Below are positions 1 through 17,666 of a stretch of DNA of 64,000 bases, one piece after another. This stretch comes from Massilioclostridium coli (GTDB lineage: Bacteria; Bacillota; Clostridia; Oscillospirales; Ruminococcaceae): contig NZ_FMIZ01000007.1 in the NCBI RefSeq assembly GCF_900095865.1, forward strand, positions 372,001 to 436,000, read 5' to 3'. Each line of letters opens with the position of its first letter. The first letter of the stretch is position 1. Position numbers and translations under genes: made by a program. The notes under the pieces are model-generated. The model made no database searches. It had not been told where the DNA came from and worked only from the letters and a program-made list of their open reading frames with translations.

Positions 1-2
1 GT

Positions 3-719
3 ATGCGGACAAAAGATGAAAGCGAATGGATCAAGATTCCCGATCATCACGCCCCATTGGTTAGCAAAGAACTTTTTGAGAAAGCCAATGCTTCCGTTAA
101 GCGGTTTAAAATTCCGAAACGAAAACAGCATAACTATCCCCTTCGAGGAAAAGTATTTTGCGGATCCTGCAAACATGCTATGCACCGTTCCAATGAGACC
201 ATTTACCGCTGCAGGTTTTCCTATATGGATTCTTCACAGCCCTGCTATGGTATGACGATCCGGGAAAAGGAATTGGAAGCCATAGTATATGAATTTCTCT
301 GTAAACAGTTTGAAGTATCTTTAGGGATTGATGGACCGAATGAATTAAAACCCGTCGATAAGGCTGCGGTGAGACGAGCTGAATTTGATAATCAGATTTT
401 TGAGCTGCAGGAAGAAAAGCGTAAACTCTATGAGGCGCTTGTAATAAAGCAGATTGATGTTAACTTCTATAAAGAACAGAAAGTGCTTATCGAACAGCGA
501 TTGCTTGAAGTGCAGAATATAAAAGCTGTTGTAATGACAAGGCTGGAGGCTGAACAAGAGGAAAAAGAACGTCGGCACCAACAAAAAGATGTGTTACAGT
601 CTTTGGTTGAAAACAAAGGACTGACTTCTGAACTTGTTGATATGCTGATTGAAAAAATCTTTATTTACCCTGACAAGAGGGTTGAAATCGTGCTAAAAAT
701 AAAAAATGACCTGGCATAA
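3..719 (+). CDS. Large serine recombinase, C-terminal part (runs off left edge)
   Basis: The reading frame is open to the left edge, so only the C-terminal half of a site-specific large serine recombinase (TndX/TnpX type) is present. Visible parts are the end of the recombinase domain (HHAPLVSKELFEKAN), a zinc beta-ribbon with the Cys pairs CGSC and a later single Cys pair region (YRCRF...QPCYG), and a long Glu/Lys/Gln-rich coiled coil (about residues 115-200). The N-terminal catalytic serine lies outside the window. Such enzymes integrate and excise conjugative transposons, islands or phages, and the gene often lies at one end of the element. Here the gene is followed by a terminator and then by an interrupted integrase gene, which suggests this is the right end of an inserted element. 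Confidence 0.85.
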   Translation: MRTKDESEWIKIPDHHAPLVSKELFEKANASVKRFKIPKRKQHNYPLRGKVFCGSCKHAMHRSNETIYRCRFSYMDSSQPCYGMTIREKELEAIVYEFLCKQFEVSLGIDGPNELKPVDKAAVRRAEFDNQIFELQEEKRKLYEALVIKQIDVNFYKEQKVLIEQRLLEVQNIKAVVMTRLEAEQEEKERRHQQKDVLQSLVENKGLTSELVDMLIEKIFIYPDKRVEIVLKIKNDLA

Positions 720-738
720 CAGCTCAGGGTATATTGAT

Positions 739-774
739 AAAGCCAGTTAGGAATTGCGGTTCTTAACTGGCTTT
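739..774 (+). terminator. Hairpin terminator after serine recombinase
   Basis: AAAGCCAGTTA at 739-749 pairs with TAACTGGCTTT at 764-774. It lies 20 bases after the recombinase stop codon and probably ends its transcript. It is still inside the putative element end. Confidence 0.65.
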
Positions 775-825
775 TAGAAGTTGAAAAAAAATCTCCATAT
801 TTTTTTGTCGTGGACTTGACATAAG

Positions 826-848
826 GGTGCCTTAACGCATGGAAATTA
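826..848. other. Putative junction between serine-recombinase element and integrase gene
   Basis: On the minus strand the integrase reading frame is convincing up to FHALRH and then turns into HPYVKSTTKKYG, which no longer looks like an integrase (normally HT-A-T and, some 25-30 residues later, a GH and the catalytic Tyr). The change falls at about 826-848, which I take as the right boundary of the element carrying the first serine recombinase. The exact crossover bases cannot be fixed without the left end. Confidence 0.45.
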
Positions 849-1794
849 ATATTCCTAATACCTGTTTGTTTTAAATACCTTTTAAAACTATTCTGATAGC
901 TTCTAGGTTCAATATATTTTTCTGTGTCCCCTGTTAAAATATAAGCATTTTCTGGGTATCTTTCAGACCATATTTTTAATTCTGTTAATAAAAAATCGGG
1001 GATAGGTATTTGACGGATAGAGTTTTGCGTTTTTGGGGTATCTATAACAATCTTTGTTTTTGTATCCGCTTCTTTATCTGTATTTTTGACCCTTTGCATT
1101 GTTTTTGTAATATTAATAATACCTATATCCAGTCGCAAGTCTTTCCATCGCAAAGCACAGATTTCCCCTAACCTAGTACCAGCATATAGGGATAATAAGA
1201 TACCAACCCCTTTTATCTCGTTCCTAATATTGGCTTTTATATATTTTACCAATTTAACCTGTTCTTCTTCCGTTAATACTTCTATTTCTTTCCTTGGTAC
1301 ACTAGGCTTTGTAATTTCATATTGGATAGGGGGGATATACCCCTTTATTTCTCCATAATGAAGGATTTGCTTTAATATCTTTACCATATCAAGGACTGTT
1401 TTAGGGGACAGCCCGCCTTTTTTGTCCAGCCTGCCGTTTTCTGTTTTTTTTTGATAAAATCGTGGATTGTTTCTTGTTGGATTTCATTTCTATCTATTTG
1501 TTTAAAGTAAGGTAGGATATGCCTTTCTAAGATGTACTGGTAATTTGTAAAAGTAGATTGTTTATTTTTTATTTGTATATTTGCCAGCCATTCAGAACAA
1601 ATCTCCTCAAATTCCTTTGGATTATGATAGGGTGTTTTCTCGGTTGGCTGTTGTGTTTGTAATTTCTGTTTTAATTCAGAGTAGGTTTTGGCATAAATAG
1701 ATTTATATTTTGTTTTTCCAAAGTTGGGAACAACGACCCTTGCTTCCCAGCGACCATCTTTTCTTTTACGGATATTCTCGCCATGTTTAGCCAT
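837..1794 (-). pseudogene. int: Tyrosine-family integrase, truncated and frameshifted
   Basis: This is a phage/ICE-type tyrosine recombinase broken in two ways. The N-terminal piece (1381-1794) begins MAKHGENIRKRKDG and holds the arm-type DNA-binding domain and the SAM-like core-binding domain. It runs out of frame at an A9 run (minus strand, about 1445-1455). One extra A would rejoin it to the second piece as KKKTENGRLDKKGG and on to MVKILKQILHYG. The second piece has the first catalytic motif (TRLGEICALRW, containing the catalytic Arg) and HALRH, but the box with the final Arg/His/Tyr is missing because foreign sequence starts there. A lysine-rich start with an upstream AAAGGAGCTTTT supports the 1794 start. 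The enzyme should be inactive. The frameshift alone could be a sequencing error in the homopolymer; the 3' truncation could not. Confidence 0.85.
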
Positions 1795-1984
1795 GTTTAA
1801 AAGCTCCTTTCTTTATAAAAAATTGACCCCTTATTTGACCCCTAATAGAAAAAAATCTACTAGAAAATAAAGTGTTTGATAGTAAGATAACATAAAAATG
1901 GTTCGGTAAGTTCATAAAAGTAGACAAAAAGCATTTACAAAAGACATTTTTTGATATAAAATAGGGGTATCAATAGTCGTGAAG

Positions 1985-2017
1985 TCCTTTCGTATAGCTA
2001 CAAGCTATACGAAAGGA
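1985..2017. repeat. Perfect 14-bp inverted repeat with 5-base loop
   Basis: TCCTTTCGTATAGC at 1985-1998 is mirrored by GCTATACGAAAGGA at 2004-2017 around TACAA. It lies in the 373-base gap between the divergent integrase fragment and the small ORF at 2168. It could be a terminator-like hairpin without a T tract, a regulator site or a recombinase binding site. The half-site core TTCGTATA also occurs in loxP, which is probably coincidence. Confidence 0.6.
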
Positions 2018-2077
2018 AAAGCACATATTTTACTACTTATAACTATGAAATAACTACAACTTTTATTCCATTTATAT

Positions 2078-2118
2078 AAAAGGGGTTGAAACACTTTTAA
2101 TGTGTTTCAACCCCTTTT
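2078..2118. terminator. Strong 17-bp hairpin terminator
   Basis: AAAAGGGGTTGAAACAC at 2078-2094 pairs perfectly with the sequence at 2102-2118 around the loop TTTTAAT, with A and T runs on the two flanks. It could stop transcription in both directions. It separates the integrase side from the recombinase side. Confidence 0.8.
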
Positions 2119-2167
2119 TGGTTTTTAAATTAGTTCTTTTGACATATATTTTACAGAGGTGATAGAC

Positions 2168-2302
2168 ATGTCAAAAGAATTTTCAAAAGATGGTATTAAA
2201 AATATTTTTAAATCGGAAACGAAAGAAGAAATAAAAATAAAATTCAATCAAAAAATGTTTGACATTATAAGCCATGCTCAAAAGTCTAAAAAAAATGTTT
2301 AA
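2168..2302 (+). CDS. Small basic protein of unknown function, 44 aa
   Basis: A 44-residue ORF starts MSKEFSKDGIKNIFKSETK and ends SKKNV. It is preceded by a good ribosome binding site (GAGGTGA, 2157-2163, spacing 4-5) and ends 79 bases before the next gene. It is lysine-rich and has no recognised domain. Its place, isolated behind a terminator and directly upstream of a complete serine recombinase, fits a small accessory protein of that recombinase, possibly a recombination directionality factor like the small SprB of the SP-beta system. That role is inference from position only. Confidence 0.55.
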   Translation: MSKEFSKDGIKNIFKSETKEEIKIKFNQKMFDIISHAQKSKKNV

Positions 2303-2307
2303 TATTG

Positions 2308-2337
2308 TTGCAAACCCGCAAAATATTGTTGTATAAT
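2308..2337 (+). promoter_or_regulatory. Promoter of the serine recombinase
   Basis: TTGCAA (2308-2313) and TATAAT (2332-2337) are separated by 18 bases, 44 bases before the recombinase start. The 9-mer ATATTGTTG occurs twice (2302-2310 and 2323-2331), 21 bp apart (two helical turns), overlapping the promoter, and could be an operator. Confidence 0.55.
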
Positions 2338-2381
2338 AATATTTAGTGGGATTGTTTCTTTGAAAGGAGAAACAACCTGAT

Positions 2382-3959
2382 ATGAAAAGTTATAAAAATA
2401 GAACACCGTTGGTTGCGATTTATCCCCGTTTATCCGATGAAGATAGGTTTAAAAAAGAAGGTGATGAAAGCGAAAGCATTATCAATCAAAAAAATATGCT
2501 AATCAAATATGCTTCCGACCAAGGATGGAATATTTATGACATTTACTGTGATGAAGATTATAGCGGTGCCGACCGTGATAGACCAGAATTTAACAGGTTG
2601 TTAAAAGATGCGGAAGAAAGAAAATTTGATATTGTACTCTGCAAGTCCCAATCCAGATTTACTAGAGAAATTAAAATTGTTGAAGATATTATTCATGAAA
2701 AATTTTTATTATGGGGAATTCGATTTGTCAGCATTGTAGACCATGCGGACACCGAAGACCCATATAATAAAAAACAGCGTCAAGTAAATGGTCTAGTAAA
2801 TGAATGGTTTTTGGAAGACACTTCTATTAATATTCGTAAAGTTTTTGACCACAAAAAGAGGGAGGGTATACATATTGGTTCCTTTGCTGTATATGGATAT
2901 AAAAAAGACCCAGAACACAAAGGGCACTTGATTATTGATGAGGAAGCCGCCCAAGTTGTCAGATTGGTTTTTCAATTATTTGTTGACGGAATGGGAAAGA
3001 CAGCGATTGCTAGATATTTGAATGAAAAGGGAATTCCAAACCCCAGCGAGTATAAACGACAGCAGGGGCTTAGATTTAAAATTAATGGCGGTAGTTGTGG
3101 ACATTTATGGAAATATTTTTCCATCTCCAATATGTTGACAAATGAAATGTATATCGGCAATATGGTGCAGAGCCGTCAGAAAAACCTTTCCTATAAATGC
3201 CGTAAAAAGGTAATGATACCGAAAGAAGATTGGGTTATTGTACCAAATACCCATGAACCGATTATTGATATTGATTTATGGAACAGGGCGCAAAAATTAA
3301 TCCAATTGAAATCAAAAGCATTTGACACCACTGGGAAAATTGGGCTGTTTAGTAAGAAAGTAAAATGCTTAAACTGTGGTTATACAATGCGAGCTGCGAA
3401 ATATCATGATGAGAGATATTTAAGATGTTCCTCCAGATTTTATGATAAAAAATCCTGCTCTGGTTCTATGATTTCTGAAAAAAGGCTCTCTAATTACATA
3501 TTAAATGAAATTCATAAATTAGCAAAAGAATTTCTGGACAAAGACGAATTGGAAAGAAAACTGGAACTAGAGGACAAAACAAAAACGAAACTAGATGAAA
3601 ATAAAAAACTTTTAGAACTTTATCACAAACAGATTGATAAATGTAAAACTTCCATCAAACAGGTTTATTTGGATAAATTAAACGGGGTTATACAATCCAT
3701 TGATTTAGATGAGATTATAAGCGATTTTGAAAAAGAACAAATGAAGTATGAAAAACTCGCAACTGATGTATTAGTTAATATTGAAAAAATTGAAAATCAA
3801 AAAGAAGAAAGCACCAGCAAACAACAACTAATTGAACAGTATAGTAATGTTCAAGAATTAACAAGAGATATGGTCGTAACACTAATAGACTACATAGAAA
3901 TCGGTTCAAGAAAAAAAGGGACGAGAATCCGTCCGATTGTAATTCATTGGAATTTTTAA
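2382..3959 (+). CDS. Large serine recombinase, complete (525 aa)
   Basis: This is an intact large serine recombinase. The N-terminal resolvase domain (about residues 8-155) has the catalytic Ser18 in YPRLSDED and the Arg-containing SQSRFTRE motif. It is followed by the recombinase domain (YGYKKDP... to GKTAIARYLNEKGIPNP), a zinc ribbon with KCLNCGYTM and a distal Cys pair (about 325-365), and a long charged coiled coil (about 400-490). The start is supported by GAAAGGAGAAACAACCTG before ATG. The 3' end lies about 35 bases from the point where a cotJC reading frame resumes, the usual gene-next-to-att layout of such elements. I infer that it mobilised an island into cotJC. Confidence 0.93.
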   Translation: MKSYKNRTPLVAIYPRLSDEDRFKKEGDESESIINQKNMLIKYASDQGWNIYDIYCDEDYSGADRDRPEFNRLLKDAEERKFDIVLCKSQSRFTREIKIVEDIIHEKFLLWGIRFVSIVDHADTEDPYNKKQRQVNGLVNEWFLEDTSINIRKVFDHKKREGIHIGSFAVYGYKKDPEHKGHLIIDEEAAQVVRLVFQLFVDGMGKTAIARYLNEKGIPNPSEYKRQQGLRFKINGGSCGHLWKYFSISNMLTNEMYIGNMVQSRQKNLSYKCRKKVMIPKEDWVIVPNTHEPIIDIDLWNRAQKLIQLKSKAFDTTGKIGLFSKKVKCLNCGYTMRAAKYHDERYLRCSSRFYDKKSCSGSMISEKRLSNYILNEIHKLAKEFLDKDELERKLELEDKTKTKLDENKKLLELYHKQIDKCKTSIKQVYLDKLNGVIQSIDLDEIISDFEKEQMKYEKLATDVLVNIEKIENQKEESTSKQQLIEQYSNVQELTRDMVVTLIDYIEIGSRKKGTRIRPIVIHWNF

Positions 3960-4000
3960 CCTTGATTTTACTTTTTTGTTGGTCATTTCTAATAGCTATA
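3960..4000. other. Putative attachment-site junction (attR) within cotJC
   Basis: Immediately after the recombinase stop the frame reads through a Phe/Leu-rich stretch with no CotJC similarity and then, from GCT at 3995, gives AIEEKARTTYDNLL, the well conserved helix of CotJC (usually I-A-x-EEKAR-TY). The crossover core must lie in about 3985-4000. The partner half with the cotJC N-terminus should sit beyond the left edge. Confidence 0.55.
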
Positions 4001-4207
4001 GAAGAAAAAGCACGGACCACCTATGATAACCTTTTACGTTTAGTTGATGATCCAGATGTAAGGGATCCATTAAAATTTTTGCGTGCTAGGGAAATTGTAC
4101 ATTTCCAACGCTTTGGTGAAAGCTTGAGAAAAGTGCAAGATGAATTAAATAGCAAGAATTTCTATGCGTTTAACCCTGCATTTGACCGCAAGAAGAAAAG
4201 AAAGTAG
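3995..4207 (+). pseudogene. cotJC: CotJC spore-coat protein / Mn-catalase-like, C-terminal fragment
   Basis: About 70 residues of CotJC remain: EEKARTTYDNLLRLVDDP followed by DPLKFLRAREIVHFQRFGES and a short Lys-rich tail. CotJC is a mother-cell spore coat protein of the manganese-catalase family. The metal-binding Glu/His pair in REIVHFQRF is present, but roughly the first 120 residues are missing. The open frame can be followed back to an ATG at 3947 inside the recombinase gene, but that start has no ribosome binding site and the extra residues are not CotJC-like. The fragment is best explained as the distal exon-like half of a gene split by the recombinase-bearing element. Excision could restore it. 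Confidence 0.8.
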
Positions 4208-8066: not shown

Positions 8067-8558
8067 AGACTGCACCCTGGCGGGTGTGTATTGTAACTCG
8101 CTCTCATTTTGGGAGACAGGAAAAATGGCTAAGTTTCCGTACCCTGGCGGGTGTGTATTGTAACCACTTTGGTTCATATTTGCTTTACTTACTTCAGTTT
8201 TCCGTACCCTGGCGGGTGTGTATTGTAACATCCGCCTGGCGTTCCTGGCCTTCTGGGGTGTAATTTCCGTACCCTGGCGGGTGTGTATTGTAACCTGTTC
8301 TTTTTAGTGTAAATTATTTTAATCGAAAGATTTCCGTACCCTGGCGGGTGTGTATTGTAACCCCGTGGTGCATATCATGGGTTATACATAGAGCTATTTC
8401 CGTACCCTGGCGGGTGTGTATTGTAACTTACAGATCAGCAAAAGGAGGATGCGAATAATGATTTCCGTACCCTGGCGGGTGTGTATTGTAACAAAAAGAG
8501 AAATTGGTCATAAACTAACGGAAGAAATTTCCGTACCCTGGCGGGTGTGTATTGTAAC
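8067..8558 (-). CRISPR. CRISPR array, 8 repeats and 7 spacers, no cas genes nearby
   Basis: A 31-base repeat (32 if the usual preceding A is counted) reads on the + strand TTTCCGTACCCTGG then CGGGTGTGTATTGTAAC. Copies start at 8067, 8134, 8199, 8264, 8331, 8397, 8462 and 8528. Copies 2-8 are identical; the first is altered in its left part (AGACTGC for TTTCCGT). The spacers are all different and 34-36 bases long. ACCC-TGGC-GGGT inside the repeat gives a small hairpin. A decayed repeat usually marks the leader-distal end, so the leader should be on the right and transcription leftwards, in agreement with a TATAAT on the minus strand at 8605-8600. The + strand end GTGTATTGTAAC resembles the 3' end of type I-C repeats, which would argue for the opposite direction, so type and orientation remain open. 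No cas gene lies in the window. Confidence 0.93.
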
Positions 8559-8745
8559 TGCGGCATGAATGCGCCCTTGATTTTCGGGGGTTCACAGCCA
8601 TTATAGTGCGAACTTGATCATTTCCACTTTCCTTTTAACCTAAATAAATCGACTTGTTACTCACAAAGCTACAAGTTATAGCTAGTGCGAACAATACGTA
8701 TTTTTTATGGTTACTTACCATTCGCACTGGCAATGATGTTTAAAA
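8559..8745 (-). promoter_or_regulatory. Putative CRISPR leader
   Basis: Read leftwards, this AT-rich segment has TATAAT (8605-8600) about 40 bases before the first intact repeat. The octamer TTCGCACT (or its complement AGTGCGAA) occurs three times: just before the -10, near 8677, and inverted near 8730, where it forms an inverted repeat with the middle copy. The clear -35 box is missing. These could be binding sites for a regulator or the adaptation machinery. Confidence 0.45.
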
Positions 8746-17417: not shown

Positions 17418-17666
17418 TTAAACTCCCTTATATTTTTTACGGGTAGCTATGCCTCCTCGAATGTGCCGTTCCTGTTTATTGATTTCTAGGATTTTTTTCA
17501 CTTGCTTATATAGTTGTGGATTTACCTTTTTTAAATTTTCAGATACATCTTTATGTACGGTACTTTTACTGATTCCAAATACTTTTGCCGTTGTGCGTAC
17601 TGTTGCCCGATGTTCGGCGATATATCTTCCTAGCAGGACGCATCTGTCATCTGTATTGATGTTCAC
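17418..17666 (-). CDS. spoIIID: Sporulation transcription factor SpoIIID
   Basis: An 82-residue mother-cell DNA-binding protein with the helix-turn-helix TVRTTAKVFGISKSTVHKDV and the conserved basic tail RHIRGGIATRKKYKG, clearly SpoIIID. It modulates SigmaE-dependent genes and helps to switch on sigK. The start is GTG 17666 with AAAGGGTG upstream; the ATG that overlaps it is out of frame and hits a stop. It shows that the organism belongs to a spore-forming lineage, which makes the split cotJC at 4 kb meaningful. Confidence 0.97.
   Translation of the reverse strand: MNINTDDRCVLLGRYIAEHRATVRTTAKVFGISKSTVHKDVSENLKKVNPQLYKQVKKILEINKQERHIRGGIATRKKYKGV

Follow-up and report, generated by a model that had tools for sequence, protein, structure and literature searches.

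The 64,000-nucleotide stretch of Massilioclostridium coli DNA analyzed here (C1:372001-436000, referred to below as the window; genome size 2,985,330 bp, 7 contigs) contains, close to its left end, the 3' piece of the spore coat gene cotJC, preceded by a gene for a large serine recombinase. The 3' piece (positions 4001 to 4207, plus strand) consists of 68 codons and a stop codon. The corresponding 5' piece is found in the same contig and on the same strand, ∼91.4 kb to the left (C1:284205-284611); cotJA and cotJB lie ahead of it, and the reading frame stops a few codons past the break. Joining the host flanks at a shared GA dinucleotide puts the two pieces in frame and yields a complete CotJC of 201 residues. 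The positions of the two pieces define an intervening element of 91,391 bp, the last 4,000 bp of which (positions 1 to 4000) fall in the window, with the remainder at C1:284610-372000 and the crossover GA at C1:284610 and window position 4001. In Bacillus subtilis, cotJC is expressed in the mother cell, so that here, as in elements of the skin type, a mother-cell sporulation gene is split into two halves that join in frame.

The initial annotation, made from the sequence of the window alone, had proposed that a serine recombinase element interrupts cotJC and may be excised during development, and had placed the N-terminal half to the left of the window, behind cotJA and cotJB, which is where it was found, at the other end of the element. 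The same annotation had the cotJC 3' part begin in a clean frame at 3995; the frame was read correctly, and the host part starts at 4001-4002. No ribosome-binding site was seen before this piece by eye, in agreement with the earlier description.

A Pfam Mn_catalase search of the same genome matched four places: the window piece (profile positions 147-198), the 5' piece on the same strand (C1:284205-284612, profile positions 1-150), a 222-aa paralogue with 34% identity (C1:471444-472055), and a weak 169-aa relative at C1:427822. A complete cotJC elsewhere, which would speak against an interrupted gene, was not found in these own-genome searches, which recovered only the paralogue and the more distant relative. 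The paralogue was considered as a spare cotJC and rejected because of its 34% identity and the absence of any cotJA or cotJB match in the surrounding 8 kb.

Attachment sites and crossover

The attR region (positions 3978 to 4002) comprises the element arm, an inverted repeat of the attL arm, followed by the crossover dinucleotide GA at 4001-4002. The attP sequence at the junction of the circular form is an imperfect inverted repeat centred on the shared GA, with 17 of 23 positions matching. Sliding one of the arms produced at best 13 matches, and none of 5,000 shuffles reached 17. Inverted arms are the form used by serine integrases. The same arrangement is seen in relatives broken at the same place in cotJC (site C, see below): the consensus, built from 35 attL and 59 attR regions, has TAAGAACAAC on the element side of attL and GTTGTTCTTA on the element side of attR, again as inverted arms. 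In the present genome, both arms are altered together with respect to this consensus (GACCAAC with GTTGGTC). The recombinase gene ends 41 bp before the crossover, and the element thus has its own recombinase beside an attachment site and matching attL and attR, like elements of the skin type.

A core repeat matching positions 3985-4000 had been expected from the initial annotation. The two ends do match as a pair of attachment sites, and cotJC is restored in frame across them; the shared core, though, is just the GA at 4001-4002. An exact core repeat at the ends of the element was rejected, since no in-register match at the break is longer than GA, and longer matches at other offsets were rejected as a core because their positions are not homologous codons.

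Seven small site-C elements with both ends within one locus were analyzed in the same way as the window element. Six of them join in frame at GA, with symmetry of 13 to 18 of 23 positions and sizes of 3,306-9,318 bp. Complete small elements within single loci are represented by L158, L166, L175, and L182 (L labels denote loci and G labels genomes, the present genome being G000); L182 is the 5.6-kb element of Sporofaciens musculi.

Split cotJC genes within the family

Of 148 genomes of the family, each at least 90% complete, 106 yielded a match and 104 contained a CotJC gene. This gene was split in 40 of the 104. The classes, tallied by hand for the 106 genomes, were as follows: 58 intact genes (not each of them read), 40 genes in separated pieces, 5 with a probable break at a further site (site D), 1 truncated where its contig ends, and 2 with only a paralogue or a weak match. 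The breaks fall at codons 28-33 (site A), 61-65 (site B), and 133-136 (site C). The probable fourth site, D, is represented by genes that end at codons 176-180. Twenty fragments end at codons 173-179 (L051, L136, L207, L258, L349, and others), six of them with a recombinase frame at a distance of at most 3.5 kb; this set includes L186, which lies at a contig end, and L229, which might just have a divergent end.

Recombinase frames are present in the fetched stretches of 36 of the 40 split genomes. In G095, the recombinase lies before the 5' piece: a B1-type recombinase (L106:63-1343) immediately precedes a cotJC piece without its first codons, as if another insertion were present at the gene start. 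No recombinase frame was found in the fetched stretches of G015, G066, G109, and G124, in three cases because the contigs end at the break. A tree was built from 44 recombinases, of which 40 came from split loci and 4 others from the window element. Branches with 100/100 support set apart all 12 site-A rows and, likewise, all 5 site-C rows; the 21 site-B rows formed two groups (B1 and B2). The site labels require 5 changes on this tree, with a minimum of 4 and a shuffled mean of 20.6; none of 200 shuffles was as low. The tree program gave a long-branch warning, which makes the relation among the recombinase groups unsure.

Several genomes (G001, G005, G067, G084, G097, and G126) have two, perhaps three, elements in cotJC. 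In G001, the one other member of the genus examined, cotJC is broken into three, and the cores measure 10 and 11 bp. A search of 10 open reading frames (ORFs) of its site-B element against PHROGs for signs of phage origin returned a single match, of unknown function. A sigma-factor-like frame near the G001 cotJC 5' piece (L016) appears by eye to be shortened after ∼170 residues. In minimal site-A elements from two different genera (L056:3248-3991 and L059:1931-2674), look-alike 247-aa cell wall amidases are encoded beside the recombinase, the one in L056 being an Amidase_3 protein with SH3. A role in mother-cell lysis and a phage relic are both guesses at what these amidases represent.

Split cotJC genes outside the family

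When the site-C alignment was run against titled genome records, at least 423 relatives were returned, of which the best 80 were kept. In 71 of these best 80, the locus contained a cotJC piece broken at site C, the same break as in the window. This piece was within 500 bp of the recombinase in 64 of the 71 loci and 0.6 to 5.7 kb away in the other 7. The 71 loci come from Clostridium fessum, Diplocloster modestus, Anaerotignum lactatifermentans, Anaerotruncus colihominis, Roseburia faecis, Faecalicatena faecalis, Sporofaciens musculi, and Pseudoflavonifractor, among others, many of which are metagenome assembled; split cotJC was also detected in records titled Lachnospiraceae, Oscillospiraceae, and others. 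In IMG/VR, where flanks are often short, the share of loci with a cotJC piece was 6 of 21 for the site-C recombinases, 18 of 80 for B1, 20 of 80 for A, and 10 of 63 for B2. The elements of C. fessum and D. modestus (L122 and L123) are 99.9% identical over 7,600 bp, while their cotJC flanks are only 68.4% identical, which indicates recent insertion at one site in two genera.

These data bear on the trivial explanation that an assembly artefact or truncation at contig ends mimics a split gene. Many pieces in draft genomes do lie near contig ends. However, both pieces of the present genome are in one 1.7-Mb contig, whole small elements were recovered within single loci, the recombinase clades agree with the sites, and one and the same element is found in two genera with different host flanks. 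An artefact is accordingly a very improbable source of the pattern.

Recombinase, small upstream gene, and promoter-like motifs

The recombinase gene (positions 2382 to 3959, plus strand) is complete, as had been noted at the outset, and encodes a protein of 525 aa. Its domain content is that of a large serine recombinase, with Resolvase (PF00239), Recombinase (PF07508), and Zn-ribbon (PF13408) domains above the cut-off and, in addition, DUF4368. It matches a PHROG integrase family at 9.5e-101 and in the tree forms a clade with four other site-C recombinases (100/100).

Directly upstream lies a small gene on the same strand (positions 2168 to 2302) encoding 44 aa. A co-directional small gene is found in this position in 87 of the 106 site-C loci examined, at a median distance of 77 bp, and in 67 of the 71 titled-genome loci with a cotJC piece. 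The window protein matched a profile built without it at an E value of 3.4e-6 in a small search set; there was no Pfam, NCBIfam, or PHROG match up to an E value of 1. This family, conserved next to the site-C recombinase clade, is a candidate recombination directionality factor. A different small gene precedes the site-B2 recombinases in 11 of 19 loci, and frames of the helix-turn-helix type are found instead upstream of the recombinase in site-B1 loci.

The small gene and the recombinase are preceded by a terminator-like hairpin (positions 2082 to 2121, read from the sequence by eye) and by a mother-cell-type -10-like box, CATATATT (positions 2143 to 2150, plus strand). Promoter patterns were counted on dissimilar representatives (<65% identity). 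Upstream of the small gene, the pattern ATA-N17-CATANNNT occurs in 19 of 34 such regions (2 on the reverse strand; shuffled mean, 0.3), and AC-N16/17-CATANNNT in none of the 34. Upstream of cotJA the picture is reversed, with AC-N16/17-CATANNNT in 34 of 67 regions (1 on the reverse strand; shuffled mean, 1.0) and ATA-N17-CATANNNT in 1 of 67. On the basis of the B. subtilis consensus forms, the former pattern is taken here to be sigma-E-like and the latter sigma-K-like. In the present genome, cotJA is preceded by boxes AC and CATAGGAT at fitting spacing, which miss the strict sigma-K-like pattern by one base. A looser first version of the sigma-E pattern was found before the small gene in 51 of 69 regions, compared to a shuffled mean of 2.95; in 42 dissimilar regions it gave 26 forward and 2 reverse matches, and it preceded other ORFs in 16 of 740 cases.

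Several points weigh against reading these motifs as developmental promoters. The patterns were fixed after the consensus had been inspected, and the sigma classes are assigned by likeness to B. subtilis consensus forms. The upstream pattern scan of the present genome found no matching -35 box for the small gene in the window. Part of the interior of the motif before the small gene is conserved as well (37 of 53), which a simple promoter would not require. The looser first pattern was as frequent before cotJA on the forward strand as on the reverse strand (7 of 73 each), a seeming failure explained by the sigma-K-like pattern that the cotJA regions carry instead. Finally, the sigma-E pattern was absent from all 20 spoIVA upstream regions; these were judged unfit and rejected as a sigma-E control, since many of the 12 inspected directly adjoin the coding sequence of a different gene.

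Some of these points would fit an alternative in which excision and entry take place stochastically, also in growing cells, so that cotJC is restored in part of a mixed population with no sporulation switch, as reported for the yin element in yabG. Excised forms of yin were seen at all time points (PMC10747680). Positions 2308-2337, ahead of the recombinase gene, can be read as a sigma-A-like promoter, and the small gene in the window has no clear sigma-E -35 box. On the other hand, ATA-N17-CATANNNT recurs before the small gene in more than half of the dissimilar regions, against the 0.3 expected from shuffles, and a directionality factor restricts skin excision in both Clostridioides difficile and B. 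subtilis (PMC5025042, PMC6957869). Stochastic excision is therefore viewed as a possible but rather unlikely mode.

Integrity of the gene pieces

Piece integrity was assessed in the titled-genome loci for 17 N-terminal pieces that start by codon 3 and 49 C-terminal pieces with enough sequence, the others being set aside. None of the 17 N-terminal pieces has an internal stop, and 46 of the 49 C-terminal pieces are open for at least 55 codons from the crossover. The recombinases of the 80 loci kept are all without stops in the alignment; 78 are nearly full length, and 78 have the YxRxS motif.

Within the family, ratios of nonsynonymous to synonymous differences (pN/pS) in trimmed pieces, compared within genera, had medians of 0.108 for intact-intact pairs (n = 10), 0.163 for intact-split pairs (n = 12), and 0.136 for split-split pairs (n = 8). 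The intact-split median is far under 1. With values well below 1 that are slightly raised in split genes, constraint on the pieces is strong, if possibly somewhat relaxed. The case is clearest in G083 and G143: 45 of 200 fourfold sites differ between their site-B recombinases and 10 of 41 between the downstream cotJC pieces, with 0 of 106 residues changed in the latter; this fits a single inherited insertion. The spoIVA gene, also found in the present genome, is present in 39 of 40 split genomes, 56 of 58 intact ones, and 33 of 44 without CotJC (Fisher test, P = 0.0039 for split versus without CotJC and P = 1 for split versus intact). This comparison excludes the five site-D genomes and the contig-end genome, all of which have spoIVA. 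A paralogue was counted by hand, among the matches listed, in 8 of 40 split and 9 of 58 intact genomes. That the host belongs to a spore-forming lineage had been concluded from spoIIID at 17.4 kb, and an ORF at positions 17418-17666 (minus strand), named by eye, agrees with this.

A competing explanation is that cotJC serves as a neutral landing site, with insertions inactivating a dispensable coat gene and the pieces being young pseudogenes. Such a scenario is compatible with the recent moves between genera exemplified by C. fessum and D. modestus and with the finding of intact cotJC in one species and split cotJC in another, often within one genus. The increase in pN/pS over the intact-intact pairs (P = 0.044 for intact-split and P = 0.12 for split-split pairs) points in the same direction. 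In-frame stops occur in the trimmed pieces of 3 of 28 split genomes: G005 (codon 181), G054 (codons 177, 181, and 189), and G068 (codon 199). Two genomes look decayed: G147, with a split cotJC, lacks spoIVA, and in G019 the recombinase is broken and cotJC frameshifted. However, young pseudogenes are difficult to reconcile with nearly all assessed pieces being open and the recombinases free of stops, or with the unchanged residues of the G083/G143 piece at 24% fourfold divergence, about the same as in the recombinase. Split genomes also resemble intact ones in their spoIVA content and, among the matches listed, in the frequency of a paralogue, and the small gene has its own conserved promoter-like motif. 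A neutral landing site is accordingly considered unlikely, and the present data favor retention of cotJC function.

Proposed role in sporulation

The reading preferred here, and regarded as probable, is that the cotJC element lets the gene be rebuilt by excision in the mother cell, in the same way as skin. The promoter-like motifs of the relatives, the skr-like placement of the small gene, and the constraint on the pieces all point to developmental excision. A mobile element with a dedicated serine recombinase would insert at the conserved site C, codon 136, of cotJC. It could persist there, since only the mother cell, which is destined to die, requires cotJC. The small gene would come on early in the development of this cell, from a promoter of the sigma-E class, of the kind seen in most of the dissimilar relatives. 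Its product would then act as the directionality factor, and the recombinase would join attL and attR at GA, so that the element leaves as a circle and cotJC is whole again. The rebuilt gene could be transcribed together with cotJA and cotJB from a later promoter of the sigma-K class. The forespore would retain the split gene and, with it, the element, which is thereby inherited. At the level of the locus, the 91-kb element seems able to excise cleanly.

Other observations are less easily accommodated by such excision. For L130 and L180, symmetry is higher one position off (17) than at GA (16); in both loci, the 5' cotJC piece starts at site-B codons. The ends of L153 share no GA. In G005 (site B; C23), G074 (C83), G098 (C1), and G109 (C1:1313660 and 1325146), all counted among the 40 split genomes, the pieces are so ordered or oriented that simple excision would not restore the gene; recombination between elements is a possible cause. 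G054 and G083 yielded no middle cotJC piece, and for sites A and B1 the six largest clusters displayed did not include a clear candidate for a directionality factor.

A broader proposal, about as likely to be right as wrong, is that cotJC is a shared docking gene in which several recombinase lineages use three or four sites within 600 bp (A, B with two lineages, C, and probably D), with two, perhaps three, elements at once in some species. The mother cells of more than one-third of the species with cotJC would then carry out one or more ordered, sigma-E-driven excisions before sigma-K reads cotJABC. Excision would be a routine step of spore formation, and cotJC a route for cargo across genera.

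Comparison with known intervening elements

The closest parallel is the skin element of B. subtilis, which interrupts sigK. In both cases, a serine recombinase gene is located at the end of an element within a mother-cell gene, and a small gene lies directly upstream of it; in skin, skr overlaps the recombinase gene spoIVCA, and the sigma-E promoter of spoIVCA is found upstream (PMC6957869). This likeness is one of layout. Unlike skin, the present element targets a coat gene rather than a regulator and, at 91 kb, appears to contain a nested conjugative element. The skin element of C. difficile encodes a recombinase and a small directionality protein (CD1231 and CD1234), the latter under sigma-E control (PMC5025042); a candidate for such a protein is encoded here, directly upstream of the recombinase, in an element with a different target gene.

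The phages SP-beta in spsM and phi3T in kamA likewise occupy spore genes that are restored in frame, as cotJC is on paper, and combine a recombinase with a directionality gene as a unit (PMC4191935, PMC6957869). These are active phages, whereas the scanned ORFs of the window element are conjugation-like. In six small cotJC site-C elements, no evident phage genes were seen by eye, with no family search made. Phage-derived genes are typical of skin-type elements but are not required, as shown by gin in gerE of Bacillus cereus ATCC10987, a non-phage intervening element (PMC5595907). Like the element described here, gin has several serine recombinases; the three tandem recombinases found here, however, appear to be part of the nested element and are distinct from the one on the attR side. 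The yin element in yabG of Clostridium botulinum V73 is another intervening element in a clostridial sporulation gene; it was described as unique to one strain, whereas the cotJC elements are widespread (PMC10747680).

Convergence of diverse recombinases on one conserved gene was also described in the survey of large serine recombinase target genes by Durrant et al. (2022), where the targets named include Mg chelatase and prolyl isomerase (PMC10083194). In the same work, a DUF4368-rich clade was called multi-targeting; the window recombinase (2382-3959) bears DUF4368, and its near relatives are mostly at cotJC (71 of the best 80).

The split of cotJC as such is confirmed, and its interpretation as the result of an intervening element is supported. 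This kind of element is already known. New, as far as the literature was searched, are the cotJC target, the several sites and recombinase lineages, the multiple occupancy, and the breadth of distribution, as well as the apparent order of sigma-E followed by sigma-K. No report of an element in cotJC was found in that search, which covered part of the open-licence papers, so that one may be in print elsewhere; cotJC has no mention in the main text of PMC4191935, PMC5595907, PMC5025042, PMC10747680, PMC6957869, or PMC10083194.

The developmentally excised elements in the cited papers are single cases in a handful of genes, while cotJC is split in more than a third of the family genomes that have it. 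This suggests that related bacteria commonly rebuild cotJC by DNA excision while sporulating; if so, the rebuilding of mother-cell genes would be a common process among them. Why mobile DNA settles in genes of the mother cell can now be studied by comparing many genomes. The loci also provide new pairs of recombinases and attachment sites and a candidate directionality factor. Genome annotation and sporulation predictors, in turn, may wrongly call such cotJC genes truncated.

Other contents of the element and the window

Of the 100 ORFs listed for the element, 13 different ones were searched against Pfam and/or NCBIfam, and PHROG searches covered the recombinase and the small gene. The scanned ORFs belong to conjugation, recombinase, and resistance families, with no phage structural family (Pfam/NCBIfam) among the 13. 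The low-GC arm on the attL side encodes an M48 peptidase, a TraD-like coupling protein, and a von Willebrand domain protein; the low-GC arm on the attR side contains a broken tyrosine integrase, the small gene, and the cotJC recombinase. The inner segment codes for a MobA/VirD2-like relaxase, a TraG-type P-loop ATPase, a topoisomerase, a CD1108-family protein, a sortase, and three tandem recombinases, as well as a Tet(M/W/O/S)-type ribosomal protection protein (C1:307187-309106, L006:11187-13106; NF033148, 1,285 bits at a cut-off of 1,100). The inner part is probably a conjugative element nested within an older, smaller cotJC element, so that, judged by gene content, the present element appears to be mostly this conjugative element rather than a simple prophage.

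The window begins with the 3' part of the last of the three tandem serine recombinases, probably of the nested conjugative element (positions 3 to 719, plus strand; ORF C1:371196-372719, with two more upstream). In the tree, this protein is outside every cotJC-site clade; its neighbor has Resolvase, Recombinase, and Zn-ribbon domains. The broken tyrosine integrase, an accessory gene in two frames (positions 665 to 1794, minus strand; Phage_integrase, PF00589, on a 240-aa piece), lies between the tandem recombinases and the cotJC recombinase and is perhaps derived from a third element. Further to the right, a CRISPR-like direct repeat is present at positions 8067-8567 in eight copies with a spacing of 65-67 bp, and similar repeats were seen by eye beside the cotJC 5' piece of G001.

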